Assembly: GCA_016235245.1 (NCBI GenBank)
Contig: JACRLO010000001.1
Location: forward strand, 62,001 to 126,000
Length of the DNA stretch: 64,000 bases
Direction of reading: 5' to 3'
From: Nitrospirota bacterium
GTDB lineage: Bacteria > Nitrospirota > Thermodesulfovibrionia > Thermodesulfovibrionales > UBA6898
Shown: piece by piece, positions 10,934 through 45,627 of the stretch
How the letters are laid out: each line of letters opens with the position of its first letter
Numbering within the stretch: the first letter of the stretch is position 1
Position numbers and translations under genes: made by a program
The notes under the pieces: generated by a model
What the model saw: only the letters and a program-made list of their open reading frames with translations
Databases searched by the model: none
Told to the model about the DNA's origin: nothing

Positions 10934-12343
10934 TTAAACGCCTGCAGCCGCGAAATGGACCCGCAGTTTCTTTATGGCTGTTGTCTCGATCTGCCTGATC
11001 CGTTCTCTGGTCAGGCCGAATTCATTGGCCAGCATTTCGAGCGTCTGTTCTTCCCTGTCGAGGCTGAACCGTCCGCGGAGGATCTTCTCTTCCTTGGGGT
11101 CGAGAAGAGATATCGCGCTCCGCACCTTTTCTTTGAGATCGCTATGAATGAGGGCTGCAAGCGGCGACTGCATCGACTTGTCCTCAATGAAGTCGATCAT
11201 CTCGGAGTCATCTTCGCCGACCGGGGTATGCAGAGAGAGCGGGTCCCGCGACATCTCAAGCAGTCCCCTCACCTTATGCTCAGGCATCTTCATCCGTGCT
11301 GCAATGGTCTCCGGGGAGGGATCTTCAGCCAACTCATTGGTCAGCTGCTTAGACACCTGGATGATCCTGGTCAACTCATCCGCTGTATGCACCGGGAGGC
11401 GTATCAGCCGCGACTGCCTTGAGAGCGCACGCGTGATCGCCTGTTTGATCCAGCACATGGCATAGGTGCTGAATTTAAACCCCCTCCGATAGTCGAACAG
11501 ATCAACAGCCCTCATCAGCCCGATATTCCCCTCCTGAATGAGGTCGAGCATGCTCATTCTTCCCATGCTGGCATAACGTCTTGCCGCGCTTACGACGAGT
11601 CTCAGATTTCCCTCGATCAGGACATTTCTGGCCTCATGGATCTCAGCCCGTGCATGGCTGAACGTCCGGAGAACGTCCTGCATGGTCTCAAGCGGTGTGC
11701 CGGTCTTTTCTTTGAACGTATTTCTTTCCGCTAAAGCCTTTCTGGCATTCATGCCGGCAAGCCTCTCTCCTGTTGCATGCACCTCGGCATCTATCTCGCT
11801 GAACACCCCTTCGACGAAATCAAAGCGCAGTCTGAGCGCATTGACCCTGGCAGGCAATTTATCACGGTACAGTGATGCGGTCTTCAGCCGTTGCAGCCGT
11901 TCTATCTGCCGCACCGCGTCGACGAATTTCTTTTTCTCGTCATCCTTGATCTGCTCCGGGTCGGACGATAAACGGATGACCTCGTTCAGGTGCATCTTGC
12001 CAAACTGCACGTCGTTTCCGGCCTGCAGCAGTTTTTCGACCGCAGAAGGCAGGGAGAAGAGGGCTGCTATAGCCCGTTCCCAGCTGTCTTCGATCTGTCG
12101 TGCGACCTCAAACTCCCGGCTTCTTTTCAGGAGTGGTGTCGAACCGATCTCATTCAGGTACATCTTGAGTGGATCGCAGGACTCATAGCCGTCAGCAGGG
12201 TCTTCTTCGGCAGAGGCTTCTTCCGCATGGCTGTCAACAGCATGCTCCATCACCATCTCCTCCGGTTCTTCGGAAAGTTCTTCCGTATGATCCAGGACAT
12301 CGCTGTCCGCATACTCCGGATCAAGGTCCAAAACGTTATTCAT
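10934..12343 (-). CDS. RpoD-like sigma-70 family RNA polymerase sigma factor
   Basis: The 469-residue protein has an acidic N-terminal tail (about 1-55), region 1.2 (DPLKMYLNEIGSTPLLKRSRE), a helical non-conserved stretch (about 90-225), region 2 (NLRLVVSAARRY, LDLIQEGNIGLMRAVDLFDY, FKFSTYAMCWIKQAITRAL), region 3 and region 4 ending GLTRERIRQIETTAIKKLR. Region 2.4 keeps the Gln and Thr that read the -10 element. Of the two adjacent tryptophans used in strand opening, the first is replaced by Cys (AMCW). This favours an RpoD-like alternative factor rather than the housekeeping one, though the latter cannot be excluded. Good Shine-Dalgarno (GGGAGG) precedes the ATG. Confidence 0.85.
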   Translation of the reverse strand: MNNVLDLDPEYADSDVLDHTEELSEEPEEMVMEHAVDSHAEEASAEEDPADGYESCDPLKMYLNEIGSTPLLKRSREFEVARQIEDSWERAIAALFSLPSAVEKLLQAGNDVQFGKMHLNEVIRLSSDPEQIKDDEKKKFVDAVRQIERLQRLKTASLYRDKLPARVNALRLRFDFVEGVFSEIDAEVHATGERLAGMNARKALAERNTFKEKTGTPLETMQDVLRTFSHARAEIHEARNVLIEGNLRLVVSAARRYASMGRMSMLDLIQEGNIGLMRAVDLFDYRRGFKFSTYAMCWIKQAITRALSRQSRLIRLPVHTADELTRIIQVSKQLTNELAEDPSPETIAARMKMPEHKVRGLLEMSRDPLSLHTPVGEDDSEMIDFIEDKSMQSPLAALIHSDLKEKVRSAISLLDPKEEKILRGRFSLDREEQTLEMLANEFGLTRERIRQIETTAIKKLRVHFAAAGV

Positions 12344-12554: not shown

Positions 12555-13193
12555 TTAATCGGTCAGTTTATTCTTTATTGCATACTGGATAAGGTCAGCG
12601 TTGTTCTGCATCTGCATCTTCTGCAGGATGCGCGTCCTGAAGGTGCTGATCGTCTTGGGGCTGAGGGACATGTCATAGGCGATCTCCTTCAGGGACCTGC
12701 CCGCAGCGATCATGCGCATCACCTGGAACTCCCGGGTCGACAGGGTCTCATGGAGTGGCTTGTCGCTCTCCCCGGTAAGGTGACTTGCAAGGAAGTCGGC
12801 CAGGGACGGACTGATGTACCGCCCGCCGCGGACGATCTTCCTGATGGCAGCGATCAGCTCATCAGGCGCTGACTTCTTGGTCATATAGCCTGAGGCGCCC
12901 GATCTCAGGGCACGCACCGCATACTCTTCTTCGGCGTAGATGCTCAGGATCAGCACCGGCATGGACGGTCTCAGTTTTTTTATCTCGTCAAGGGCCTCGA
13001 GTCCGCTCATTTCAGGCATTGAGATGTCGAGCAGCGCTACGTCGAAACTGCCATTCCTGACCTTCTCGACAGCCTCTTTGCCGCTGCCGGCCTCTTCCAC
13101 TTTTCTGACGATGCCGCCCTCCTCAAGTATCTGCCTGAGCCCCTTTCGGACAATAGGATGGTCATCTGCGATAAGGATCTTATACATGGTCAC
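12555..13193 (-). CDS. NarL/FixJ-type two-component response regulator
   Basis: The 212-residue protein has a receiver domain (residues 4-120) with the acidic pair DD at 10-11, phospho-acceptor Asp56 (ALLDISMPEMSG) and Lys in MTKKSAP, then a LuxR-type helix-turn-helix (about 148-210: LSTREFQVMRMIAAGRSLKE). It should bind DNA when phosphorylated by its partner kinase. The GTG start overlaps the kinase stop by 4 bases (GTGA). The ATG two codons later, with AGAGGTGA just upstream, is an equally good start. Its targets are not visible from the sequence. Confidence 0.92.
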   Translation of the reverse strand: MTMYKILIADDHPIVRKGLRQILEEGGIVRKVEEAGSGKEAVEKVRNGSFDVALLDISMPEMSGLEALDEIKKLRPSMPVLILSIYAEEEYAVRALRSGASGYMTKKSAPDELIAAIRKIVRGGRYISPSLADFLASHLTGESDKPLHETLSTREFQVMRMIAAGRSLKEIAYDMSLSPKTISTFRTRILQKMQMQNNADLIQYAIKNKLTD

Positions 13194-16100
13194 CTCTTTT
13201 CTGAGCGTTTTCCGGACGGGATCCGGACGGTCACAACAGTTCCCTTGCCTGCAGTTCCCTGGATAGTCACTTCACCGCTGATTTCGCGCACCCGTTCACG
13301 CATGCCGATCAGGCCTAATGATGTGCTCTTGCCGAATTCCTGACTGGAGATTCCTTTGCCATTGTCCGTTATCTCAAGAATGATATTTTTCTTGTCTGCG
13401 ATGAGGCGGATCGATACTGCTTTAGCCCCTGAATGCCTTGCGACATTGGTCAGCGCTTCCTGAAAGATGCGGAAAAGAGCGACAGCAGACTCATCGGTCA
13501 GGCCGGGGATTTTACTGACAAGGTCGAGCGAGCAGGGGATACCGGTGCGCTTTATAAAAGCAGCAGCCTCCTGCTTAATGGCCACCGGCAGACCGAGATG
13601 ATCCAGCACTCGCGGCCGCAGTTCCTCACAAATCCTCTGTATATCTGCAACAGCATTATCAAGCAGTCCGATGACCGATAAGGCAGCCTTCTTTATGGGG
13701 GCCTGATCGTTGTAGCGGTTCTTCAATATAGACAACTCCATCCCTGCTGCAGTAAGGATCTGGCCCAGTTCGTCATGGATCTCTCTGGCGATCTTCGTAC
13801 GTTCCTCTTCCCGAGCCTCCTGCAGATGAGCTGAAAATGCGCGCAGCTGCTCCCGGGAAGCGGTCAGCTCTTCCTCGATGGAGAACCGATGCACAGCCTC
13901 GCCGACCAGCGGCGTAATGGTTTCGATAAAGTCAATGATCTGCAGCGGGAATGCATCCTTTTGGGGATCAGCAAGGTGTAGAGCGCCGATTACCTCGGTG
14001 CGGTACCGTACCGGGACCACGGCCAGAGAGGAAAACCCTTCGCGGATGCAGGCATGCCGGTAAAAGTCACGCAGATTTTTGGAGCAAAGGCTGGACGTGT
14101 CGTTGCAGACAAAAGAACCTTCTCCTGTCATAAAACCCGTCTCGACCCTGCGGGGCTTTTCGTCAATCACCCTGATGCAGGCGCAGGAGTCTTTCCCAAG
14201 CGAGAGGCAGTCCTCCTGCTTCAGGAACTTATTGCTGAACCCGCTATGCGCTGCAAACGGGACATCCCCTTCCCCCCCCACAATCCGTATGCCGACAGAG
14301 CTGCATCCGCACCAGCTCTTAAGCTGGCTGACAAGGGCATTCAGATATTCGGAACGCGAGGCAGTGGCGGATAAGAGCTTGAGCACATTGTTGGCTGCCT
14401 CGGTCTGGCGTTCCTGTGCCTTGCGTTCGGTAATGTCAAAGACAGTTGAGCGGGTCATTATGAAATTATTGTCCCTGTCACGCATAGCCGTGGCATTCAG
14501 AAGGATCGGCAGCAATGTTCCATCCTTGCGGATCAGCTCGAATTCGACTTCCCTGATAGATCCTGATTTCAGGAATTTCGGAAAAAGCTGCTTAAACCGT
14601 TTTCTGCTCTCCCTGGCATGAAACTCATCTATCTTTCTGCCGATCACTTCGTCCCTTTCATATCCCAGCCAGGAGAGTTCAGTGTCATTAATGCTGACGA
14701 TCCTGCCCTCCTTGTCCAGAGAGTGATAGCCACAGGGGGCATTGTTGTACAGGTCTTTGATCTCAGCAGAAGATGCCAAAAGAGAGCTTTCGGCCTCGAT
14801 CCTTTTCTTCTCTGCGGCCATGGCTTCGATCGCAAAGGATATATCGTCTGCAAGTGAAGAAAGCAGGTTGAGCTCTTCGTCCGTAAAGAAGTGGGGGGTT
14901 TCGGCATATGCAGTGAGTGCACCGACGACTGCGGAGCCAGCATGCAGGGGAAAGGCTGCAGATGAGCGAAAACCCGCCTTCATTGCAGACTCTCGCCAGG
15001 GCTGCATCGTCGGGTCATTTTCTATGTCCGGGCATACCATGACCTTCCCTTCGACGATCGCCCTCCCGGTTGGCCCCCGCCCTTCAGGGACGTCCATCGC
15101 GATGATCGTGATGCGGTCAAGGTATTTGCCGCTGTCCCCTGCGCTGGCAATTGGTTCGACCTTTGACGTTTGAGGGTCAAGGAGTCCGATCCATGCCATC
15201 TTAAAGAGTTTGCTGTCAATAATAATGCGGCAGGTCTGTTCAAACAGTCTTTCGGGATCGTGGATGCGGACAATGGCCTCGTTCACCCGTGACAGGACCG
15301 AGTAGAGCGCGTTTATGCGTGCAAGCCTTCTTTCTGCCTTTCTGCGTTCATATATCTCTGCTTCAAGGTCGTCATTGAGAGCCGCCAGTTCAGAAGTGCG
15401 CATCCGTATACGCTCCTCAAGCTCATCGTGTGCTCGCTGCAGTTCCTCCGCTGCCTGCTTGCGCTCAGTAATGTCGCGGTGAATCCCGATAAAACCAATA
15501 ATATTGCCTTGGACATCTTTAACTTTAGTGCCAAGCGTTTCAGCATAAAAGAGCGACCCGTCCCTCCGCCGATACCGAACCTCAAAAGGCATGGAGTCCA
15601 CATTTGTCTGATTCAGATAGACTTCCCTTCCAATCCTCTCATACGTGTCTCCGTCCGGATAAAAGATCTCGGCAGAACGGCCGATGATCTCATCCGGTGA
15701 ATAGCCGAAAAGCCTTTCTACCGCAGGATTGACCATTAGCACTCTTCTCTGCATGTCAGCGAATACCACAGCATCGGTGATGGAATTAAACATCGCCTCA
15801 AACTCGGATTTGCTTCTGGCCAGAGCTGCTTCAGACTTTTTGCGGTCGGTAATGTCAATCAGGACGTGGACTGCTCCGCGCGGAAAGCCCCGATCGTCCA
15901 GCAGGGGAGTGCCGTAACCCAGCAGGTGTCTGATTGTGCCATCGTCGAAGACCAGGCTGAACTCGAAGTCCTGTACATGTTCGCCGCGGGCAGCCCGCTG
16001 CGCAGGAAGCTCCTCAAGCCTTAGTTCACGTCCATCCTTGAGCGCCCTGAAATGACGCGGCCTCACCTTAGAAGGCGCTGACAGCGAGACCTCAGCGCCG

Positions 16101-16627
16101 TGCGGTTGCTTAAGCAGGTCATCTGCTGCGCGATTTCCTGTCATGTGGGTTGAATCAGGGTCATGGACGATAATAACAGGAGTCGGCACAGCCTCTAGCA
16201 CAGTGGCCAATTCCTCCGCCCGTTCACGTTCACGCAGCCCACTCTCCCGAAGCGCCTCCTCTGCTCGCTTACGCTCCGTGATATCGAAAGCATAAATGCG
16301 TGCGACATTGAATTGCGGAATAAGCTGGATAGTTTCGTGGAAAATCCTATCCTTGACTACCACCTCGAGGGAAAAGGAACATTCGGATTTCCTATTCAGG
16401 TCATCCAGAATGACACCCAGTTCCAGAGGCAGGAATATAGCCGCATCCTTCTTGTCCAAGCCCAGACCGTCAAGAATACGGACAGCTCCGGGGTTGATAA
16501 ATACGACGTTGCCGGAAATATCCACCTCGATGACCGGATTCGGATTCAGTTGAGGAAAGGAGGCGAGGTGCTTTATCAGCTCATCTGATTTCCTGTTTTC
16601 GTCTTCTTCTGTTATCGAATTTTCCAT
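13190..16627 (-). CDS. Multi-PAS/GAF soluble sensor histidine kinase
   Basis: From Met at 16627 the protein has 1145 residues: PAS (about 20-115), PAS (about 135-260), PAS (about 270-390), coiled coil, GAF (about 455-620), PAS (about 640-760), a cysteine-rich GAF (about 770-910), HisKA_3 with phospho-acceptor His near 950 (IAREIHDELGQIL), and HATPase_c ending GLIGMRERV..GTAGKGT. No membrane segment or signal peptide is seen, so it senses in the cytosol, perhaps redox, heme or small ligands. I prefer 16627 to the longer frame (to 16735) because GCAGGAGCA directly precedes this ATG. It is coupled to the downstream NarL-type regulator. Confidence 0.9.
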   Translation of the reverse strand: MENSITEEDENRKSDELIKHLASFPQLNPNPVIEVDISGNVVFINPGAVRILDGLGLDKKDAAIFLPLELGVILDDLNRKSECSFSLEVVVKDRIFHETIQLIPQFNVARIYAFDITERKRAEEALRESGLRERERAEELATVLEAVPTPVIIVHDPDSTHMTGNRAADDLLKQPHGAEVSLSAPSKVRPRHFRALKDGRELRLEELPAQRAARGEHVQDFEFSLVFDDGTIRHLLGYGTPLLDDRGFPRGAVHVLIDITDRKKSEAALARSKSEFEAMFNSITDAVVFADMQRRVLMVNPAVERLFGYSPDEIIGRSAEIFYPDGDTYERIGREVYLNQTNVDSMPFEVRYRRRDGSLFYAETLGTKVKDVQGNIIGFIGIHRDITERKQAAEELQRAHDELEERIRMRTSELAALNDDLEAEIYERRKAERRLARINALYSVLSRVNEAIVRIHDPERLFEQTCRIIIDSKLFKMAWIGLLDPQTSKVEPIASAGDSGKYLDRITIIAMDVPEGRGPTGRAIVEGKVMVCPDIENDPTMQPWRESAMKAGFRSSAAFPLHAGSAVVGALTAYAETPHFFTDEELNLLSSLADDISFAIEAMAAEKKRIEAESSLLASSAEIKDLYNNAPCGYHSLDKEGRIVSINDTELSWLGYERDEVIGRKIDEFHARESRKRFKQLFPKFLKSGSIREVEFELIRKDGTLLPILLNATAMRDRDNNFIMTRSTVFDITERKAQERQTEAANNVLKLLSATASRSEYLNALVSQLKSWCGCSSVGIRIVGGEGDVPFAAHSGFSNKFLKQEDCLSLGKDSCACIRVIDEKPRRVETGFMTGEGSFVCNDTSSLCSKNLRDFYRHACIREGFSSLAVVPVRYRTEVIGALHLADPQKDAFPLQIIDFIETITPLVGEAVHRFSIEEELTASREQLRAFSAHLQEAREEERTKIAREIHDELGQILTAAGMELSILKNRYNDQAPIKKAALSVIGLLDNAVADIQRICEELRPRVLDHLGLPVAIKQEAAAFIKRTGIPCSLDLVSKIPGLTDESAVALFRIFQEALTNVARHSGAKAVSIRLIADKKNIILEITDNGKGISSQEFGKSTSLGLIGMRERVREISGEVTIQGTAGKGTVVTVRIPSGKRSEKR

Positions 16628-16868
16628 TGCTCCTGCCCTGGGCTTCTGCCTGTTTCCGGCCAACAAGTTTCTATATTTTATCATGAAAGGCCGATGGCAA
16701 GACTGCAGAAGGAGCAGAAAGATTTTGTAGGGCAATACTTACATCGTGCTCCCGAGATTCCGACATAAATAGTCCAATGTCCCTCTTGAATAACCACGTC
16801 ACAGGCAGCAAAATGATTACAGGAAGGAACTGCTGCTCGACATTCTGCATTTCAACGGAGGAAAGACG

Positions 16869-17099
16869 ATGTCATATCAGGATGAAGTAGAAAAAATCGC
16901 ATACGAACTTTACGAAGCAAGCGGGAGGATTAGCGGCCGTGATCTTGACAACTGGATTGAGGCAGAGCACATCGTGGCACGCAAGTATGCTCAGAAGAAA
17001 AGCGGGAACAGGCAGGGAAAAGAAACTACAGCAGACTGCGGCAAAAATGTCCCTCAGAAGCGCAAACAGCCGGCTGGCGACAGGATGGCAGTGGCATAA
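16869..17099 (+). CDS. DUF2934 domain protein
   Basis: The 76-residue protein carries the DUF2934 signature IAYELYEASGRISGRDLDNWIEAEHIV (split here as IAYELYEASGR and DLDNWIEAEHIV, residues 10-36), followed by a basic, low-complexity tail. The family's function is unknown. A strong GGAGG lies 6 bases before the ATG. It opens the run of small plus-strand genes that diverges from the sensor kinase and is 2 bases from the next gene. Confidence 0.75.
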   Translation: MSYQDEVEKIAYELYEASGRISGRDLDNWIEAEHIVARKYAQKKSGNRQGKETTADCGKNVPQKRKQPAGDRMAVA

Positions 17100-17101
17100 G
17101 T

Positions 17102-17533
17102 ATGGGCTTTTTGTATGCAGAAGACCACAACAAGCTGTTCAAACAACTGCAGGAATCTTACTGCCTTCGACCTGAAGATATACTTTTCGTCAATAATATC
17201 GCTGGATGGTGCAGACAGCAGGGCATTCAGGAACCTGACAGGGAAAGGCCGCTTAAACTCGTCACGAGCAGTCCGCAGGGCTGCAAGATGCTGATCAGTC
17301 GTGTCGCCACTGATCAGGAGATCGAGCAGCGGATCAATGCTCTGCGCATCAGAAATCAGCTTAATAGTGCTACAGAGGACCTGGCAGAGAGACTGAACTC
17401 GGACAGAAAGAAGTTTGCCTATCTTTTTTTGGCGGAATACGCCGCAAGCCTGCCGGAGATCGGGCAGGACGAACTGCTGGCAGATGTCTGGGCGTTTAAA
17501 GAAATGGAACGGCTGAATTTTTTCAAGGCGTAA
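17102..17533 (+). CDS. Unknown small protein in DsrC-like gene run
   Basis: I do not recognise this 143-residue protein. It looks soluble and helical, with three cysteines (YCLRP, GWCRQ, GCKML) in the first 65 residues and an acidic, leucine-rich helix at the C-terminus (FLAEYAASLPEIGQDELL). It starts 2 bases after the DUF2934 gene with only a weak AGGATGG upstream, so translation is likely coupled. Ten bases separate it from the next gene, so the four genes probably form one transcript. Confidence 0.65.
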   Translation: MGFLYAEDHNKLFKQLQESYCLRPEDILFVNNIAGWCRQQGIQEPDRERPLKLVTSSPQGCKMLISRVATDQEIEQRINALRIRNQLNSATEDLAERLNSDRKKFAYLFLAEYAASLPEIGQDELLADVWAFKEMERLNFFKA

Positions 17534-17543
17534 AGGAGGAACA

Positions 17544-17915
17544 ATGGGCTACACAGTTGTCGCACTAAAAAATAGAATCATGGAGATGTACCCGGAGATC
17601 GAAACAAACGGTGTCATGATGAGTCTTGTCTTCAATAAGGATAACGATACCTATTTTATCAGTTTCAGCAAAGGGCTGAATGCATTTGCTACCCATCTGC
17701 AAAGGAATGAAGTTGATAAATGTATGGACGGCATCAAATTCGTCTTTTTGGGTTTTCAGATAGGACGCTGGCTGCAGAGTTTCGTATCCGGTCAGACGCA
17801 GACAACCGACAGTCCTGCCTTACAAACCGGCCGTCAGCAGGAGCCGGAGCGCGGCCATTACCGATGGCCCGACAACAGGAAGGAGGAGCCATGGGCTACA
17901 CAGTTGTCGCACTAA
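17544..17915 (+). CDS. Small protein duplicating the N-terminal domain of the next gene
   Basis: The 123-residue protein has no recognised family. Residues 1-83 match residues 1-82 of the following DsrC-like protein at about half of positions, and 19 of the first 20 residues are identical. After residue 85 the sequence becomes hydrophilic and unlike the partner (QTGRQQEPERGH), and its end runs through the next gene's ribosome binding site, overlapping it by 25 bases. AAGGAGGA stands about 5 bases before the ATG. It looks like a tandem duplicate that lost or never had the DsrC part. Confidence 0.7.
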   Translation: MGYTVVALKNRIMEMYPEIETNGVMMSLVFNKDNDTYFISFSKGLNAFATHLQRNEVDKCMDGIKFVFLGFQIGRWLQSFVSGQTQTTDSPALQTGRQQEPERGHYRWPDNRKEEPWATQLSH

Positions 17916-18137
17916 AAAATAAAATCATGGAGATGTACCCGGAGATCGAGAAGAACGGCATCCTTGTGGGTCTTGTCTTCCATGAAGAAAAGAATGCCTA
18001 TGTCGTCAATTTCAGAAAAGGGGCCCATCTGCTCTCTACCCATCTTGAGAAGAAGGATGCTGATGAGTGTATGGACGGGTTTAAATGCGTACATCTGGGA
18101 GGCCAGATAGGGCAGTTCATTAAGAATTTTATTAGTG
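17544..18137 (+). repeat. Tandem gene-segment duplication
   Basis: Two copies of an 82-83 codon domain start at 17544 and 17891, 347 bases apart. The first 59 bases of the copies differ at only one position, while the remainder has diverged to about 45% amino-acid identity. Each copy has its own AAGGAGG-type ribosome binding site. Confidence 0.85.
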
Positions 18138-18502
18138 ACCGGCCCCCGGTGCCGGAGATGCTGATGATAGAATGCTGTGGATATTCAGCCTGTATTGATA
18201 ATGACGGCTATCTGCTAAATTTTCATGACTGGAATGAAAGCATTGCCTTCGGTCTGGCAGAGAGGGAGGGAATAAAGGAACTGACCGATGATCAGATCGA
18301 TATTCTGAAATTCGTTAGAGCCCACTACGAGCAGTACAATTATTTTCCGATCATCAGATCTATCTGTAAGAACCTGCATCAGGATAAGGACTGCCTCAGC
18401 GAAAAGTTTGTGAATCCGGCTATTGTATGGAAGCTGGCCGGGCTGCCGAAACCCGACGCAGTGATCATGAATCTCCTGGAGCATAACGAACCGCCCACAT
18501 GA
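17891..18502 (+). CDS. DsrC/TusE-like protein lacking both redox cysteines, with extra N-terminal domain
   Basis: The 203-residue protein joins an 82-residue unknown domain, duplicated from the gene before, to a DsrC/TusE-like domain. The DsrC match is clear: a short strand pair (ACIDNDGYLLNFHDWNE), then AEREGIKELTDDQIDILKF, VRAHYEQYNYFP and WKLAGLPKP at the end. DsrC carries sulfur on a Cys in the last residues (GCV) and a second Cys about ten before; here those places are DAV and IVW, so persulfide chemistry at these sites is not possible. Other cysteines (ECC, AC, CK) lie elsewhere. A regulatory role is inference. AAGGAGGA precedes the ATG. Confidence 0.75.
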   Translation: MGYTVVALKNKIMEMYPEIEKNGILVGLVFHEEKNAYVVNFRKGAHLLSTHLEKKDADECMDGFKCVHLGGQIGQFIKNFISDRPPVPEMLMIECCGYSACIDNDGYLLNFHDWNESIAFGLAEREGIKELTDDQIDILKFVRAHYEQYNYFPIIRSICKNLHQDKDCLSEKFVNPAIVWKLAGLPKPDAVIMNLLEHNEPPT

Positions 18503-18542
18503 CAAAAATAAGGAATAGTGCCACGATTCACAGCCTCGGCAT

Positions 18543-18565
18543 TGCCTGGCAGAATTAACCAGGCA
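18543..18565 (+). other. Hairpin between DsrC-like and CBS genes
   Basis: TGCCTGG (18543-18549) pairs perfectly with CCAGGCA (18559-18565) around a 9-base loop. There is no T-run. It may protect or separate the upstream transcript from the CBS gene that starts 21 bases later. Confidence 0.4.
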
Positions 18566-18586
18566 CTGAATAGTAGGAGGGTTATC

Positions 18587-19030
18587 ATGTCCTGTATTAC
18601 CGCAAGAGATATCATGTATCCGAGGGTAAGTATTCCGGCCAAAATGAAGGGGGATGAAGTGGTCCAGAAGCTGATGTGTCCCTATCCTGCTCTGCCGGTA
18701 ATTAACGATGATTATGAGGTCGTCGGTATCGTCTCTGAATTCGATCTTTTAAGTGCCGTCAAAGAGGGAAGGACGATCCACGAGTTCAGCGCCGAATCGA
18801 TCATGAGCTGCGGCCATCCTGACCACAACGTCTGCAGCAAACCGGTCACCGTGTCGGTAGAGACATCGGTCGAAGACCTTGCATCTTTGCTGTTTTCTGA
18901 CAGCTTCACGGTCCTTCCGGTCGTGCAGGACAAGATGCTGGTCGGACTTATCACCAGAAAAAGCGTGATAAATGCGATGGCAGAACAGGGATACTGGCAT
19001 GAGATGGATTTCCAAAAGAGAACACCATAG
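18587..19030 (+). CDS. Stand-alone CBS-pair protein
   Basis: The 147-residue protein is little more than two CBS motifs: residues about 3-62 (ARDIMYPRVSIP, LPVINDDYEVVGIVSEFDLL) and about 72-140 (MSCGHPDHNVCSKPVTVS, LPVVQDKMLVGLITRKSV). CBS pairs bind adenine nucleotides and usually signal energy state; the partner is unknown. The ATG at 18587 follows TAGGAGG by 6 bases, which is why I do not use the longer frame from 18518. Two cysteines in the inter-CBS loop are unusual. It lies 84 bases after the DsrC-like gene on the same strand. Confidence 0.88.
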   Translation: MSCITARDIMYPRVSIPAKMKGDEVVQKLMCPYPALPVINDDYEVVGIVSEFDLLSAVKEGRTIHEFSAESIMSCGHPDHNVCSKPVTVSVETSVEDLASLLFSDSFTVLPVVQDKMLVGLITRKSVINAMAEQGYWHEMDFQKRTP

Positions 19031-25504: not shown

Positions 25505-26797
25505 TCAGACAGATTGTTCCGGACCATATCCCGTTCGACGGGCAATGAGCACGACAAGCCAGGACAGGGCAATGGCGACTCCAAGAATACCGGCTGAGGC
25601 GATAACATTGTTGAGCAGCGCAGGTTTTATCGCCAGGATAGCACCAAGAAAAAGCATCATAAGGCCTGAAATGAGTTTAAGCTTTCGCCCCTGCCACTCG
25701 GTAAGTTTCCGTGCGCCGAGCGTTATCGTAAATGCAGCAACAATAATCGACAGGGGGATAATGTAGACAAGGTTATAAAGGCCGAGGTAAAGGTAATAGG
25801 TTGCCGGGGAGAGGTTATGCAGTGTCAGGATTCTGGTAAAGACCATCGGGAACCCGGCAGTGCAGAGCAGTTCATAGGTGTTGGCAGCAAGCGCAAGCAC
25901 CATGGTCCCGCCCAACATTGACGCAAGAGACGTTGATTTGAGCAGATTTCTCATTCTTTCAAATAGCCTCGGCTTTGCACCTTCCGGTATTGAGAGTGAG
26001 ACCCCTTTTTTAAAGAAGAAAAAGTCCTTGATATTGATCGCTGCTACGATAAGACTTACAACGCCGGCCGTAAGGGTTATGGCAGAGAGATTACCGGCAA
26101 GCATGAAGAGGTTAAGCCAGGCTGCCATGAAGAGAAAATAGATCATGCCTGAGAAGAGGACAAACGTGCCGCCGATCATCATCATCCTGACCCGCGAACG
26201 TGCATGAACCAGGAGACTCAGAAGAAAGAAGAGTACAAAGAAAGCGCAGGGATTAAAGCTGTCCAATCCCCCCAGTACAACAGTTATCAGCGGCAGCGAT
26301 ACCCTGGATTGATCAATAACCCCCAATAAAGGAAGTTTAATGGTCCTTTCCGTTTCATTTTCCACAGGCTGCGTCAGCCTGTCCGCCGGATCAGCGCATT
26401 CGCTTTCAAGACAGCCTATGATGGACTTTTCCATTTCCGTTTTTTCCCTCTCGGAAAAGCCGACAAATACCCTGCGGTCAATGAATGTTACCGGCACGCC
26501 GGTTGATTTAATGCCGGCACTCTTCGTCATCCGGGAAAAGAACTGTGCATTTGCAGAATTCTGCCATACCTCATACGATTCAATGACAATTTGCGGATAG
26601 CGCTCTTTGATCGCGGCAAGAAATTCCTTTTCATGGGCGCAGTGAGGACATCCGCTACCCCAAAAAAAATAGATCTTGACGGTATTCTGCGGCTGCCGGG
26701 TTGTATCCGCAAAAGCGGGCCGCGCGCAGGTAAAGACCAATACCGGCAGCATACACACACATACAAGAAGCAACATATTGCCGCGTATCCGGATCAT
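25505..26797 (-). CDS. Thioredoxin-domain / DsbD-like membrane redox protein
   Basis: The 430-residue protein has a signal peptide, a periplasmic thioredoxin-like domain with GCPHC (Cys50 and Cys53, about residues 38-130), and a membrane part of about seven helices resembling the DsbD/CcdA electron-carrying domain. Its two membrane cysteines are likely those in FNPCAFF and LLCTAGFP. The layout suggests transfer of reducing power across the inner membrane to periplasmic disulfides, perhaps for cytochrome maturation. It overlaps the upstream YyaL-type gene by 4 bases. Confidence 0.85.
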
Positions 26798-28623
26798 TGC
26801 TTCTCCGGAGTCATGCCAAATCTGTAATCGAGTGCCATGAGAAAAAACGTATAGGCTGTCGGCGCCTGCCTGACTGAGCCAAAGAATGCCCTGGCAGTCT
26901 TTGACGCCATCTCGAGGATATCCTGGTCCCCCGTAATACTGCCAAGGCGGAGGAGATTGAAGAGCGCAATGGAATTCCCCGAAGGTATTGCTCCATCATA
27001 GACCTCTTTCTGTCGGACAAGCAGTTCCTCGCCGTCATCTGCGGTAAAGAAAAAGCCGCCATGGTTATGGTCCCAAAAATGGTCAATGAAAATCCGGTTA
27101 AGCGCGAGGGCTTCCTCAAGATACCGTGCTTCAGAAGTTGCCAGATGAAGCGCGATAAGCCCTGAGATAAAAAAGGCATAGTCGTCTGCAGAAGCAGGAA
27201 GTGATGCATCCCCCTGTCGATAACGATGAAGAAGCCTTCCCTCCGGTGTGCGAAGCCGGGCCAGGATAAAATCGGCAGCACGTGATGCAATAACCTTATA
27301 TTCTGGTTTTTGAAAAACCTCTGCTGCTCTGGCAAAAGCCGTTATCATAAGGCCATTCCAGTCGGTCAGGACCTTGTCATCCTTGCCGGGGGGTATGCGG
27401 CCTGCACGATGGGAATACAGACGGGTAAGGGCTGCTTCTATGCGGTCAGCCAGGTCTTTTTCCGCAGCTTCTGTTCCTGCGGTATTCAGATTCTTCTCCC
27501 GGTGAAAAATATTTAAACCTGAAGAACTCCCTGATGCCTGCTCTGCAAAATTACCCTCCTTGCTGATATTGAAAAACGCGCAGATGATTTCCGCGTCCTG
27601 ATGGCCAAGAACCTCGAAAATTTCCTCATGTCTCCAGAGGTAGAATCGACCCTCTTCTCCTTCACTGTCAGCGTCTTCAGCCGAATAAAAGCCGCCCTCA
27701 GGAGATGTCATGTCCCGATGGACATAGAGAAGAATATCCTCTGCCGTTTTTCGGTATGCCTCGTTTCCTGTTGTCTGAAAAGCCTCGGTATACGCGATAC
27801 AGAGCATCGCCTGATCATAGAGCATCTTCTCGAAATGAGGCAGCAGCCAATGAGCATCTGTCGAATAGCGATGGAAACCAAAACCGACATGATCATAGAT
27901 GCCGCCATCTCTCATGGCATCGAGGGTCTTTGTGACCATCTGCATCGCCTCCCTGTTGCCTGTGCTCCCGGCATATCGCAGGAGGAAAAGCAGAATATGC
28001 GGTGTTGGAAACTTGGGGGCCTGGCTGAATCCCCCGTTTTCATGGTCGAACTGATGCCTTAACTGCTCAAAGGCATCGTGAAAAACAGATTCCACCGGCT
28101 CTTCCATCGCAACAGGCGCATTTCCACGCCTGAGTCGGTCAATCACTTCTTCGGAAAGCTTCATGAGCTTCGGCAGGTCAGATTCCCATAGGCTTTTCAG
28201 GCGCGGGATCATATCAAGCATGCCAATCCTGCCGAAACTGGCCTGCCTGGGGAAATAGGTGCCGGCAAAAAACGGATGTCTGTTGGGGGCCATGATGATG
28301 GTAAGAGGCCAGCCTCCGCTGCCCGTCATGAGCTGGCAGACTGTCATGTAGACATTATCTATGTCAGGCCTTTCTTCGCGGTCTACCTTGATGGATACGA
28401 AGGTCTCGTTCATCAGTTCCGCCACGCGCTCGTCTTCAAAAGACTCCTTTTCCATGACATGGCACCAGTGGCAGGTTGAATATCCTATCGAAAGAAAGAC
28501 CGGTTTGTTATCTCTTACTGCTTTATCAAAGGCCTCCGGTCCCCATGGATACCAGTCTACAGGGTTATAGGCATGCTGCAGCAGATAAGGACTTTTTTCA
28601 GAGATGAGTCTGTTGGGGTTCAT
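26794..28623 (-). CDS. YyaL-type protein: DUF255 thioredoxin-like domain plus alpha/alpha barrel
   Basis: The 609-residue protein begins with the conserved DUF255 segment [18 protein letters not shown] and a thioredoxin-like CHWC (Cys51, Cys54) with [11 protein letters not shown], followed by a long six-hairpin-like helical domain (about 180-600, [28 protein letters not shown]). The family (YyaL/spermatogenesis-associated protein 20) is widespread, but its reaction is not settled. No signal peptide is present, so it is cytosolic. It overlaps the DsbD-like gene by 4 bases and follows a small coiled-coil gene by 65. Confidence 0.9.
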
Positions 28624-41580: not shown

Positions 41581-41904
41581 TCATTTCCTCATGTAAACAA
41601 GGAGCGATGCCTCATCCCTGCCGGACCTGGCCATTGAGGTGACCTTCTTCAGGTGATATTGCGCATCTTCCGTCTTTATCTCGTATTCTATACCGTCTTT
41701 TGTGCCGGTCAGTTCTATGAGTTTTCCGGTCCTGTAAAGGTAGAGGTTTTCCTTTGCCCGAAGCACAAGCCTAAGGCTGTCTTTCTTCCTGCCAAAGACA
41801 TCGATATGATAGGAAAATGAGGTAAGCACCACCAGAAATACCCCGCTCACAATCGCAAGAGAGACCAGGACCTCGATAAGGGTGAACCCCTTCATCTTAC
41901 TCAT
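41581..41904 (-). CDS. gspI: Type II secretion system minor pseudopilin I
   Basis: From the ATG at 41904 the protein has 107 residues, with a short leader MSKMKG/FTLIEVLVSLAI and a small head domain. The ATG lies within the end of gspH (8-base overlap), with AAGGAAG upstream. The longer frame to 41940 gives an unlikely leader and deeper overlap. GspI forms the tip complex with GspJ and GspK. Confidence 0.85.
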   Translation of the reverse strand: MSKMKGFTLIEVLVSLAIVSGVFLVVLTSFSYHIDVFGRKKDSLRLVLRAKENLYLYRTGKLIELTGTKDGIEYEIKTEDAQYHLKKVTSMARSGRDEASLLVYMRK

Positions 41905-42358
41905 CGAACTTCCTTTTGCCTTCCTCAATCTCGACTTCACCAGAGAGGTTATTCAGTATGATAGACGTCTCTCTCCCATTTTTCGTGAGATAAAACGCAA
42001 TGAGTTCTTCCTGTATCGAAGGGCTGAAGGTGACGATTACCTGGCCTTCTTTTACGGTTCCTTTCGAGGGGATAAAAACCTCCCATATCTCGCCCTCGTT
42101 CATATCGATAATCCTGGGCTTATCTTTTGCCTCGCCCCTTGCACCACGTACCCTGAACTGGCGTTCTTTGAAGTCGATCGTAAAGAATATCTCTTTTTTT
42201 GTAGCAACAGCCTCATTCCTGAGCTTTCTGAGGGTCGAGGCAAGCGCAGCGTTATCGTCCTTTACCAGTCCGCCCCAGACGCTCGGGAATGATATAAAGG
42301 CAAGCGTCGTGATTATGAACAGGACAACAAGCAGTTCTAACAGGGTAAACCCTCTCAT
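41897..42358 (-). CDS. gspH: Type II secretion system minor pseudopilin H
   Basis: The 153-residue protein has a very short leader (MRG/FTLLELLVVLFII), the conserved Glu at +5 and a beta-sheet head with a charged end (EIEEGKRKFDE). GspH joins the tip to the major GspG shaft. It is 90 bases from gspG, the only sizeable gap inside the operon, and that gap shows nothing notable. Confidence 0.85.
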   Translation of the reverse strand: MRGFTLLELLVVLFIITTLAFISFPSVWGGLVKDDNAALASTLRKLRNEAVATKKEIFFTIDFKERQFRVRGARGEAKDKPRIIDMNEGEIWEVFIPSKGTVKEGQVIVTFSPSIQEELIAFYLTKNGRETSIILNNLSGEVEIEEGKRKFDE

Positions 42359-42448
42359 ACACAGTCACCTTCAGACACTGCCGGCGTTGGCTTCGCAGTC
42401 AACTCCTTAATTCCTCATATCCGGCCGTATGCGCAGCTTGAATCCGTA

Positions 42449-42943
42449 TCACTCCAACTCCCAGTTTTTTATGTCAGCGTCCTTGCCGTCTCCTCCCGGC
42501 TTTCCGTCAGAGCCATAGGAGATCATATCAAAATCGCCATGGCTTCCCGGAGACAGATACAGATAAGGGTTTCCCCAGGCATCCTTCGGTATTTTATTCT
42601 TCTCCAGGTACCCGTCATCCTTGTATTTTTTCGGTATGGGTTCTGATGCCGGCTTTGTGATGAGGGCATCGAGCCCCTGATCGGTTGTGGGATACAGGCC
42701 GTTGTCAAGTTTGTAAAGCTTCAGGGCAGTCTCAAGGTTTTTCATCTGCAGCTTTGTCTCTGCTATCTTGGCGTCGTCAGTACGACCAAGCATCTTCGGC
42801 GCCACAAGAGCGGCCAAAATACCAAGGATGAATACCACAACAAGCACCTCGATAAGCGTAAAGCCCTTCTGTCTTTGGTGGTTGGTGGTTGGTGGTTGGG
42901 GTCCGACAAAACCCGAAACGTTCTGTAAACTCTGCATCCGCAT
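42449..42943 (-). CDS. gspG: Type II secretion system major pseudopilin G
   Basis: The 164-residue protein is the main pseudopilus subunit. Its head shows the GspG features LYKLDNGLYPTTDQGLDALI, a WGNPYLYLSPG segment and SYGSDGKPGGDG, which binds calcium in this family. The prepilin leader is unusually long (27 residues before KG/FTLIEVL) and holds a PQPPTTNHQ stretch made by TTGGTGG repeats. GGAGAAG precedes the ATG. It lies 10 bases from gspF. Confidence 0.92.
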   Translation of the reverse strand: MRMQSLQNVSGFVGPQPPTTNHQRQKGFTLIEVLVVVFILGILAALVAPKMLGRTDDAKIAETKLQMKNLETALKLYKLDNGLYPTTDQGLDALITKPASEPIPKKYKDDGYLEKNKIPKDAWGNPYLYLSPGSHGDFDMISYGSDGKPGGDGKDADIKNWELE

Positions 42944-42953
42944 ATTCTTCTCC

Positions 42954-44117
42954 TTATTTAATGATCTGGTTCATCTGGAATATGGGCAGGAGAATGGATA
43001 TCACCATAAAGCCCACAACTGCACCCATCACCAGGATGATTGAAGGTTCAAGCACCCGGAGAAAGTTGTCGATCGATTTTCTGAAATCTCTTTCCGCCAT
43101 ATCCGCTATCCTTTCGAGCGGTCCTTCAAGCCCACCGGTCTTCTCGCCGGTTATCACCAGCTGAAGAAATGTCGGGGGCAGAAAAAGTGCGAGATCTGAC
43201 AGTTTTTTCCCTTCTTTGACTTCTTTCTTGATCCTGTCTATCTCTGATGCAAGGTACTCGCTGCCCGAAACGTCCCTGGAATATTCGAGCGCCTTTATTA
43301 TCGGGACCCCTCCTGCAAGAAGAAGGCTCAGGACCCTGCAGAATCTTGAGATAGAAAGGTTCCTGAATGACTTCAAGGGAGAATAAAACAGCTTTTTTGA
43401 TATCTGCATCGTCTGTTTCCGGTAATAGACCCTGCCCGAAAAAAAAGCGGCTGCTGCAGCAATGATCAGCAGATACCAGTACCCGTAGAGAAAATTGCTA
43501 AGCCCCATGAATATTCTCGTTATATAGGGCAATGGTATTTTCTGGTCCATGAATATTCCGGTCACCTTTGGAAAGACAAAGACAAAGACAAAAAATATCA
43601 GCAGCAGTGAGACCGTAACCATAAAGATAGGGTATATCAGTGCCGATCTGACCTTGTCTTTCAGTTCCTTCTCCCTCTCTAAAAAACCGGCAAGGCTCGC
43701 AAGCACAATATCCAGCCTCCCTGATTCTTCACCTGCCCTCACCATAGAGGCAGCATACTGAGGGAAGAAGTCCTTTCTGAGCTCCATGGCGCCGGAAAGG
43801 CTGAGGCCCTTCACAACATTATTGTAGACGTCCTCCATAACCTTCTTCACATTTCCCACGGTTTCTCCGGAGATTGACTGGATAGCGGCAGGCACCAGGA
43901 CGCCAGAAGATATCATTGCAGAAAGGTTAATGAAGATATCGGAAATGCTTAGACCCTTTTCGAGCCTGAAGCCTGATTTTTCATCCTTCCCGATCTCCTT
44001 TACGTAAAGGCCCTTTTTCCTGAGGTCAACAATAGCTTCATCTTCATCTCGCGAGAAGGTCTTGCCGCTTATCTCCCTGCCTTTGGTATTGTAAGCGAGA
44101 TACTTAAAATTCGGCAT
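42954..44117 (-). CDS. gspF: Type II secretion system inner-membrane protein F
   Basis: The 387-residue protein has two homologous cytosolic helical bundles and three membrane helices (about 160-180, 205-225, 360-385), with the family motifs ASMVRAGEESGRLDIVL and LVITGEKTGGLE. It sits in the platform and works with the GspE ATPase. The ATG at 44117 overlaps gspE by 14 bases and gives the typical MPNFKYLAYNTKG start; the longer frame to 44150 does not. Confidence 0.92.
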   Translation of the reverse strand: MPNFKYLAYNTKGREISGKTFSRDEDEAIVDLRKKGLYVKEIGKDEKSGFRLEKGLSISDIFINLSAMISSGVLVPAAIQSISGETVGNVKKVMEDVYNNVVKGLSLSGAMELRKDFFPQYAASMVRAGEESGRLDIVLASLAGFLEREKELKDKVRSALIYPIFMVTVSLLLIFFVFVFVFPKVTGIFMDQKIPLPYITRIFMGLSNFLYGYWYLLIIAAAAAFFSGRVYYRKQTMQISKKLFYSPLKSFRNLSISRFCRVLSLLLAGGVPIIKALEYSRDVSGSEYLASEIDRIKKEVKEGKKLSDLALFLPPTFLQLVITGEKTGGLEGPLERIADMAERDFRKSIDNFLRVLEPSIILVMGAVVGFMVISILLPIFQMNQIIK

Positions 44118-45627
44118 AATCCTGGTTTGTAACTCTGAGCACTTCTTCAAGGGTGGTGCTCCCCTTCTTTACCTTGCTGATCCCGTCATCCATAAGCGTC
44201 GCCATGCCTTTTTGGACCGCTCTCTGCTTGATGGTCCTTGCGTCCTTCTTGGCAAGGACCAGATCTTTTATCTCTTCGTCTATCGAGAGGAACTCAAAGA
44301 TTCCTGTCCTGCCCAGATAGCCTTTGCCCCTGCATTCCGGGCAGCCCTTGCCCTTGTACACGGTCTCAACATCTTTCAATGCAGGAAACCCTGACTTTTC
44401 TCCTGGACTGAGTGCCACCGGCGTTTTGCAGAAATCGCATACCTTCCTCACGAGCCTCTGAGCAAGCACTCCAGACAGTGATGACGCAACCAGGAAAGGT
44501 TCAATCTCCATATCCACCAGTCTCGTGACAGCCGAGGCCGAGTCGTTTGTATGCAGTGTAGAGAGGACCAGATGGCCGGTGAGAGAGGCCTGTATGGCGA
44601 TCTCTGCGGTCTCCCGGTCCCGAATCTCGCCCACCATTATAATATCAGGGTCCTGCCTGAGTACTGACCTGAGGCCGGCAGCGAAATTCAGGTTTATTTT
44701 CGGGTTCACCTGGATCTGTCCAACCCCTCTAATCTGATATTCCACGGGGTCTTCGATCGTGATGATATTTTTCTCCTCGCTGTATATCTTGAGCAGGCTG
44801 CCGTACAGTGTCGTTGTCTTTCCGGAACCCGTGGGGCCTGTTACAAGCAGTATGCCATTTGACCGGGAAAGCAGAGACGCAAACTGAGGCATCCTGCTTT
44901 CACCAAGTCCAAGCTCCTCAAGGCTCATTACACCCTTCATGCGGTCGAGTATCCTCAATACCGCCCTCTCACCGAAAAAAGTAGGAATAATAGAAACCCT
45001 TATGTCGATGTCCTTACCGCCTACAATAAGGCGGATACGCCCATCCTGAGGCAGCCTCTTTTCAGCGATATCCAGATTGGCAAGCACTTTGATGCGTGAG
45101 ATGAGTGCGTCCTGAATTATCTTGGGCGGCGTTATGAGCTTTTTCAGTATTCCATCTATCCTGAACCTCACCTCAAGCTCCCTCTCGTAAGGCTCAATAT
45201 GGATATCACTCGCCCTCTCTTTCACCGCTTCAAGAAAAAGGGCATTAAGCAGTTTTATAACCGGCGCCTCGTCCTTCAGTTCAAGGAGGTCTTTTGGCAG
45301 CTCGGCTGACTGCGAGAACATCTTCAGGTCTTCCCCGGAGATTTCTCCCATGACCGTTTGTGCGGACGGAATAAGGCTGTAGGCCTGGTTGAGCAGACTC
45401 AAGAGCGTCTCTTCAGGGCATAACCCGTATTCAAAACCGAGGCCGAACTTCTTTGCCATGTCGCGCAGGGCGAATCTGCCGTTGTCATCGCAGACCAGGC
45501 CGAATAATGTATTGTCTTCCTTCTTGTACACAAGGAACCGGTTGTTCCTTGAAAACTCAAAGGGGACATCCTTCAGCACGCTGACATCGATATCAGAGAT
45601 CTGAAGGGAGTTGACTTCCCGGCTCAC
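44104..45627 (-). CDS. gspE: Type II secretion system ATPase E
   Basis: The 507-residue protein drives pseudopilus assembly. It has an N-terminal domain, the Walker A GPTGSGKTTTLYGS, Asp box, Walker B (DIMVGEIRDRETAEIA) and a zinc module with two CxxC pairs (CDFC, CPEC). Secretion ATPases of this type act as hexamers on the inner membrane via GspL. The ATG overlaps gspD by 4 bases. Confidence 0.95.
   Translation of the reverse strand: MSREVNSLQISDIDVSVLKDVPFEFSRNNRFLVYKKEDNTLFGLVCDDNGRFALRDMAKKFGLGFEYGLCPEETLLSLLNQAYSLIPSAQTVMGEISGEDLKMFSQSAELPKDLLELKDEAPVIKLLNALFLEAVKERASDIHIEPYERELEVRFRIDGILKKLITPPKIIQDALISRIKVLANLDIAEKRLPQDGRIRLIVGGKDIDIRVSIIPTFFGERAVLRILDRMKGVMSLEELGLGESRMPQFASLLSRSNGILLVTGPTGSGKTTTLYGSLLKIYSEEKNIITIEDPVEYQIRGVGQIQVNPKINLNFAAGLRSVLRQDPDIIMVGEIRDRETAEIAIQASLTGHLVLSTLHTNDSASAVTRLVDMEIEPFLVASSLSGVLAQRLVRKVCDFCKTPVALSPGEKSGFPALKDVETVYKGKGCPECRGKGYLGRTGIFEFLSIDEEIKDLVLAKKDARTIKQRAVQKGMATLMDDGISKVKKGSTTLEEVLRVTNQDYAEF

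Follow-up and report, generated by a model that had tools for sequence, protein, structure and literature searches.

A DsrC-like protein domain of Nitrospirota, here labelled RSP, keeps the DsrC fold, lacks the functional C-terminal cysteines of DsrC, and has a new, invariant C-x8-C pair. In dissimilatory sulfate reduction, DsrC serves as the central carrier of sulfur. RSP is the DsrC-like half of a protein (D) encoded in a run of five small genes; the shared N-terminal domain, NTD (a label likewise coined in the present analysis), makes up the other half. It is well supported that the genes of this module are associated with genes for oxygen and peroxide stress. With middling confidence they are read here as forming, in Nitrospirota (Thermodesulfovibrionia), a cytoplasmic thiol-redox module that is two-component- and sigma-linked and would act in oxygen/peroxide stress, with RSP as the dithiol partner.

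The window is a 64-kb stretch of the 3.25-Mb genome (G000) of an anaerobic bacterium. Among named relatives this genome is nearest to Nitrospirota MAGs, several of which carry the label Thermodesulfovibrionales or Thermodesulfovibrionia. Gene calling and Pfam searches placed on its plus strand a run encoding a DUF2934 protein, B, an NTD protein, an NTD:RSP fusion and a CBS pair. The features are as follows.

10934..12343, minus strand: RpoD-like sigma factor with regions 1.2, 2, 3 and 4 (Pfam).
12555..13193, minus strand: NarL/LuxR-type response regulator, whose orthologues remain next to the module.
13190..16735, minus strand: divergent soluble PAS/GAF histidine kinase (PAS/GAF/HisKA_3), likely start near 16627.
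16869..17099, plus strand: gene A, DUF2934 protein, 76 aa (Pfam PF11154, E=1e-8).
17102..17533, plus strand: gene B, 143 aa, with Cys21, Cys37 and Cys61, without a Pfam or NCBIfam name.
17544..17915, plus strand: gene C, 123 aa, diverged NTD paralogue with a single cysteine (Cys60), no Pfam match.
17891..18502, plus strand: gene D, NTD:RSP fusion, 203 aa (DsrC, E=2e-18, residues 99-190).
17891..18136, plus strand: NTD domain of D, residues 1-82, with C-x5-C at 60 and 66 (alignments A2 and A5, and model).
18155..18499, plus strand: RSP domain of D, residues 89-203, DsrC-like but lacking the cysteines of the C-terminus.
18365..18394, plus strand: C-x8-C motif of RSP, Cys159 and Cys168 of D, present in 36/36 full RSP sequences.
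18587..19030, plus strand: gene E, CBS pair, 147 aa (PF00571, E=8e-18), ATG with Shine-Dalgarno sequence.
18809..18835, plus strand: putative metal site CGHPDHNVC between the CBS repeats of E (orthologue alignment).

The five genes share one strand and A to D nearly touch, as a preliminary description of this DNA had stated. The gaps are 2 bp between A and B and 10 bp between B and C; C and D overlap by 25 bp, and 84 bp separate D from the ATG of E at 18587. The end of the run at 19030 was given correctly, and the identities assigned to the divergent kinase (PAS/GAF/HisKA_3), the NarL-type regulator and the RpoD-like sigma factor (sigma-70) were all upheld, as was the duplicated domain: C and D are 52-55% identical over their first 82 residues. 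The claim of good ribosome binding sites is true for four of the five genes: judged by eye, a clear Shine-Dalgarno sequence precedes A, C, D and E but not B. Upstream starts for D at 17720 and for E at 18518 were dropped, Shine-Dalgarno sequences and homologues favoring 17891 and 18587. The module proteins are small and have no obvious membrane segment.

The relationship of RSP to DsrC/TusE is seen in both sequence and structure, with a common fold and a profile match over the whole domain. D matches PF04358 (E=2e-18) and TIGR03342 (61.7 bits, cut-off 53.5). The RSP model, taken from a structure of D predicted from alignment A2 without separate RSP rows, has the DsrC fold, with Z scores of 9.9-12.2 to DsrC structures (best 1yx3, Z 12.2, rmsd 2.5, 103 aligned). 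The pLDDT is mostly 71-86 in the DsrC half and near 50 in the C-x8-C segment, which is its low-confidence part. The 36 full RSP sequences have a mean identity of 56% and 18 invariant positions; hits L027 and L050 were skipped and the truncated L093 was dropped. An alignment mixing NTD, RSP and fusion rows (A1) was also dropped, RSP being misaligned in it.

The differences from DsrC/TusE lie in the cysteines. In all 36 full sequences Cys70 and Cys79 of RSP (Cys159 and Cys168 of D) form the C-x8-C pair, Trp91 sits at the position of the canonical first arm cysteine (alignment A4), and the penultimate C-terminal cysteine is missing. The 7-8 residue insertion of true DsrC is gapped in all 20 RSP rows of A4 as compared with the canonical DsrC rows. 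RSP also differs from DsrC/TusE in being fused to NTD or to a thiol peroxidase. A canonical two-cysteine DsrC is encoded by a separate gene in the same genome (G000:C12); this and two further canonical DsrC sequences examined keep both arm cysteines and have no C-x8-C. Having no arm cysteines, D was ruled out as a canonical DsrC. The module had been suspected of a sulfur function, which in the DsrC or dissimilatory sense is not supported: both functional C-terminal cysteines are absent from 36/36 RSP sequences, and the canonical protein is encoded elsewhere. The loss of both arm cysteines, together with the fixation of another pair, argues against a role with sulfite reductase.

In A. vinosum DsrC, according to the accessible text of the published study, the penultimate cysteine (Cys111) carries sulfur and the upstream arm cysteine goes with DsrAB (PMC3397948). 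As a co-substrate of sulfite reductase, DsrC has this second arm cysteine about 11 residues upstream of the penultimate one, whereas 36/36 RSP sequences have tryptophan there; TusE, unlike RSP, keeps the penultimate cysteine. Under stress, RSP might nevertheless ferry persulfide sulfur for tRNA thiolation, Fe-S repair or sulfide homeostasis on its C-x8-C pair, as TusE and DsrC do on the C-terminal cysteine. Membership of RSP in the DsrC/TusE family favors this, and sulfur transfer by that family has an experimental basis in the same accessible text (PMC3397948). The counterpart of the Cys111 there described as receiving sulfur is, however, absent from all 36 RSP sequences (PMC3397948). Sulfur ferrying appears distinctly improbable, as the neighboring genes are those of oxidant defence rather than sulfurtransferases.

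RspA-type DsrC homologues share the fold of DsrC but are without one or both of its C-terminal cysteines; the group was reportedly named in a 2014 review by Venceslau et al. The missing C-terminal cysteines are common to the group and RSP, and RSP is set apart from the group as so defined by its C-x8-C pair, its fusions to NTD and thiol peroxidase, and its oxidant-defence context. DsrC proteins contain a helix-turn-helix and can bind DNA. RSP could thus be an RspA-type regulatory homologue in which C-x8-C brackets the helix-turn-helix and oxidation alters the binding of DNA or protein. This reading was retained because of a weak match of Pfam LexA_DNA_bind to residues 129-162 of D (E=0.004, under the cut-off), a stretch that includes the first cysteine, and the grouping of the module genes with a kinase, a NarL regulator and a sigma factor is in its favor. 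Against it are the acidity of RSP, with a pI of 4.7 in D and a median of 5.04 over 37 sequences, and the NTD and thiol-peroxidase fusions, which are unlike a classical repressor. A redox-switched regulator is therefore considered unlikely. Among viral proteins, dsrC_1 of SUP05 phages recalls RSP: in the accessible text it lacks the 7-8 residue insertion and one C-terminal cysteine (PMC4164917). It is viral, only its second C-terminal cysteine is missing, and that text mentions no NTD (PMC4164917).

NTD carries a cysteine pair of its own. In 64 sequences Cys60 is present throughout and Cys66, which completes C-x5-C, in 61. The three exceptions are gene C, in which phenylalanine replaces the second cysteine, and the corresponding genes of G001 and G002; they constitute a single-cysteine paralogue adjoining B. 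Neither NTD nor B has a family name in Pfam, NCBIfam or PHROGs, which gave insignificant hits only, and PDB sequence profiles yielded no convincing match for NTD. The NTD model, from D, consists of one helix, three strands and two helices, with block pLDDT values of 82-90. Fold comparison with VIA-align gave middling scores, Z about 4-5, against ribosome-hibernation factors and dsRBDs, including several HPF/YfiA entries at Z ~5 over 72-78 residues; these lie inside the tool's stated background range.

Gene fusions connect several of these parts. NTD and RSP form a single protein in G000, G002 and G006, and also in G035, G047 and G056, which belong to another family; additional members of the genus holding these last three have a frame of ~210 aa. 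In G023 a single 285-aa frame, situated after DUF2934 and B, joins thiol peroxidase to RSP (Redoxin E=4e-26, residues 24-163; DsrC-like E=3e-14, residues 184-272). A DUF2934:NTD fusion is found in G036. The existence of these three kinds of fusion joins DUF2934, NTD, RSP and thiol peroxidase in a chain, while B and the CBS protein are linked to the module by adjacency.

The neighborhood was followed in the window together with 79 loci (duplicates included), all gene-called and clustered by script, and by counting pairs within 3 kb in 61 whole genomes. Positions for the 61 genomes were transcribed by hand; chance expectation is 0.02-0.13 genomes per pair, and the genomes are related, so that the counts are not independent. 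The sequence sets include some near-identical pairs. DsrC matches less significant than about E=1e-19 counted as canonical DsrC/TusE and not as RSP, rubrerythrin rows had to reach about 105 bits, CBS was counted at about 50% identity or more, and the NTD rows G002:C23 and both of G057:C39 were omitted from the NTD counts. Among genomes having both members of a pair, NTD and RSP lie within 3 kb in 15/31 (expected 0.09) and RSP and superoxide dismutase (SOD) in 14/37 (expected 0.10). The corresponding figures are 10/33 for NTD-SOD, 9/22 for NTD-nitroreductase, 5/7 for NTD-CBS, 4/6 for B-CBS, 5/15 for both RSP-B and B-SOD, and 4/14 for NTD-B; SOD and nitroreductase pair with each other in 17/25. 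Thiol peroxidase is no more than 3 kb from NTD, RSP, B or CBS in seven of the 22 genomes carrying it (expected 0.11). Rubrerythrin co-location is low in this set (NTD 3/30, RSP 1/32, CBS 0/8); among named contigs, which were fetched by NTD similarity, it often adjoins NTD (for example in L120, L125, L128, L130, L132 and L137). Ferritin-like genes are present in several arrays of relatives, and the identities of SOD, nitroreductase, rubrerythrin, redoxin and cytochrome P460 are backed by Pfam. In the window genome SOD and nitroreductase are on another contig.

The preliminary description had held that the lack of a conserved neighborhood in relatives would count against a module; the neighborhood recurs in other Nitrospirota far above chance. 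It is subsets of the run that recur. The strict order A-B-NTD-NTD:RSP-CBS is seen only in the window genome, the sister genome G002 has a decayed version of it, and the closest relative shows B in decay. NTD was found in 51/198 Nitrospirota genomes at E<=1e-6. A scan of close relatives detected it at 39 public loci; almost all of these are from Nitrospirota, and a few bear the labels Deltaproteobacteria, Proteobacteria, Nitrospinota or Deferribacteres. RSP occurs in 39/61 relatives, and the full module is uncommon, since B is found in only 18/61 and CBS orthologues in only 8/61. A chance run of five genes was ruled out by co-location above chance and by the fusions. It could still be argued that there is no functional unit and that small stress genes have simply drifted into one oxygen-defence island, for the order varies, subsets occur, and in many of the 61 genomes NTD and RSP are located apart. 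This is barely credible in view of the three kinds of fusion and of how far co-location exceeds chance in several families.

The regulatory genes also stay with the module. All NarL matches of at least 62% identity (n=8 among 61 genomes) adjoin DUF2934, NTD, B or RSP, and the sigma-factor cluster is likewise next to the module in G001, G002, G006 and G016. In G009 the NarL orthologue and its kinase are divergent from a thiol peroxidase and a ferritin-like gene. The distant G057 has, on one strand, kinase, NarL, two NTD genes, sigma factor and RSP. DUF2934 genes stand ahead of B or NTD in G006, G016, G023 and G036, and in G017 such a gene faces NarL and the kinase. The kinase/NarL pair and the sigma factor probably control the five-gene run.

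B and E are the remaining cysteine-bearing proteins. In 15 full B sequences Cys21, Cys37 and Cys61 are present in 12, 13 and 13, respectively; several hits were passed over because their start could not be placed, and two short sequences were dropped. The best match of B among PDB sequence profiles was a designed repeat protein (E=0.0065), which is not convincing. One of five structure models was acceptable, from 4 sequences, the other four reaching 50-59 pLDDT; Foldseek gave no match for the B model at E<=0.001. Several zincin-type entries in the VIA-align list have Z of at most 4.9, inside background, from the single 4-sequence model. E carries two CBS motifs (PF00571, 2 stretches), as do standalone CBS-pair proteins, from which it differs by a conserved CGHxxHx(2,3)C insert between the repeats. 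The insert, CGH[AP][ED]Hx(2,3)C, is present in 9/9 E orthologues and missing from both neighboring paralogous CBS pairs compared.

These motifs allow another reading, in which C-x5-C, C-x8-C with a frequent histidine, and the CBS insert are metal sites and the module handles iron or zinc together with its ferritin-like neighbors. Retention of the insert in all nine orthologues and the arrays with ferritin-like genes are consistent with this. The histidine of RSP is not invariant, and NTD and RSP have just two invariant or nearly invariant cysteines each, so that metal handling is judged quite improbable.

The thiol-redox reading is preferred. The suggestion of a redox module in the preliminary description agrees with the neighbors (superoxide dismutase, nitroreductase, thiol peroxidase, rubrerythrin and ferritin-like proteins) and with the conserved cysteines of B, NTD, RSP and the CBS protein. 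The neighbors and the thiol-peroxidase fusion argue for peroxide/oxygen stress, and these two together with the exchange of cysteines are why D is read as a dithiol redox partner. The DsrC fold would have turned from a sulfur carrier of sulfite reductase into a dithiol/disulfide partner, its C-terminal arm losing both functional cysteines while the segment that follows the central helix gained the new C-x8-C pair. With its C-x5-C, NTD would be the dedicated partner domain of RSP, and the two presumably bind each other where they are separate proteins. Both cysteine pairs are predicted to be redox-active. RSP may swap electrons with thiol peroxidase where this is present, and elsewhere probably with other thiol proteins. 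The window genome gave no thiol peroxidase match at E<=1e-30, and RSP there must therefore be independent of it and need another partner. The single-cysteine paralogue C, the three-cysteine B and the CBS pair with its Cys/His insert may be accessory or sensing parts. In a more specific version, offered tentatively and with considerable doubt, the relocated C-x8-C passes electrons to or from thiol peroxidase and the C-x5-C of NTD, in whichever direction, forming a peroxide relay or sensor that links oxidant-defence enzymes to the NarL/sigma circuit, to which a metal-bearing CBS pair adds an energy signal.

Oxygen-defence sets of sulfate reducers in Desulfobacterota and Bacillota contain SOD, rubrerythrin and Tpx, the same kinds of enzymes as the module's neighbors; the accessible text mentions no DsrC-like partner, NTD or B (PMC11451228). 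A literature search, largely outside subscription papers, found no prior description of a C-x8-C DsrC relative, an NTD fusion or a thiol-peroxidase fusion. If the proposal is true, a protein of sulfur metabolism has been recruited for oxygen defence, with its sulfur-carrying cysteines removed and a new pair built in. The parts are small and free of any obvious membrane segment, so the idea is directly testable in vitro, and at least two protein families absent from Pfam and NCBIfam, NTD and B, would gain names.

The DsrC-like part of gene D, in which the small C-x5-C domain (NTD) is fused to a DsrC-like domain with C-x8-C and no C-terminal cysteines (RSP), is matched over residues 103-189 (window 18197-18457) by PHROG 17249, a phage family of unknown function (E=9.5e-14). 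This match agrees with the occurrence of phage-borne DsrC relatives.

Two further genes of note lie elsewhere in the window:
25505-26797, - strand, glutaredoxin-like protein
26794-28623, - strand, Thioredox_DsbH (YyaL-like) protein

YyaL-like genes are also present in the redox arrays of relatives, the clusters that hold module parts with oxidant-defence genes, at loci L067, L107, L122, L123 and L130. The largest arrays are L122 and L123, where a single strand carries gene B, cytochrome P460, an unnamed 148-aa gene, RSP, a YyaL-like gene, nitroreductase, two rubrerythrins and NTD; farther upstream of the array in L122 are a CBS pair and a ferritin-like gene. In G001-G007 thiol peroxidase sits between SOD and nitroreductase. 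It seems to have been lost from the genome studied here (G000), in which SOD lies directly beside nitroreductase with no thiol peroxidase between them (G000:C5 29951-31179, L162).

In the closest relative, G002, the gene B counterpart is broken (L004 2435-2740, 102 aa), with either a deletion inside the gene or a shift of frame. The stretch from this gene to the kinase yielded no DUF2934 gene.

Judged by eye from the ORF list, window 41581-47528 holds a type IV pilus/type II secretion-like gene run with prepilin-like N-termini.

Inspection by eye of the divergent kinase (window 13190-16627) revealed a Cys-rich region at the second GAF domain that may serve to sense redox state or metal. In a different family, one strand of L145 (G057:C39) carries a kinase, a NarL-type regulator, two NTD genes, a sigma factor and RSP, and this set is possibly the ancestral unit.
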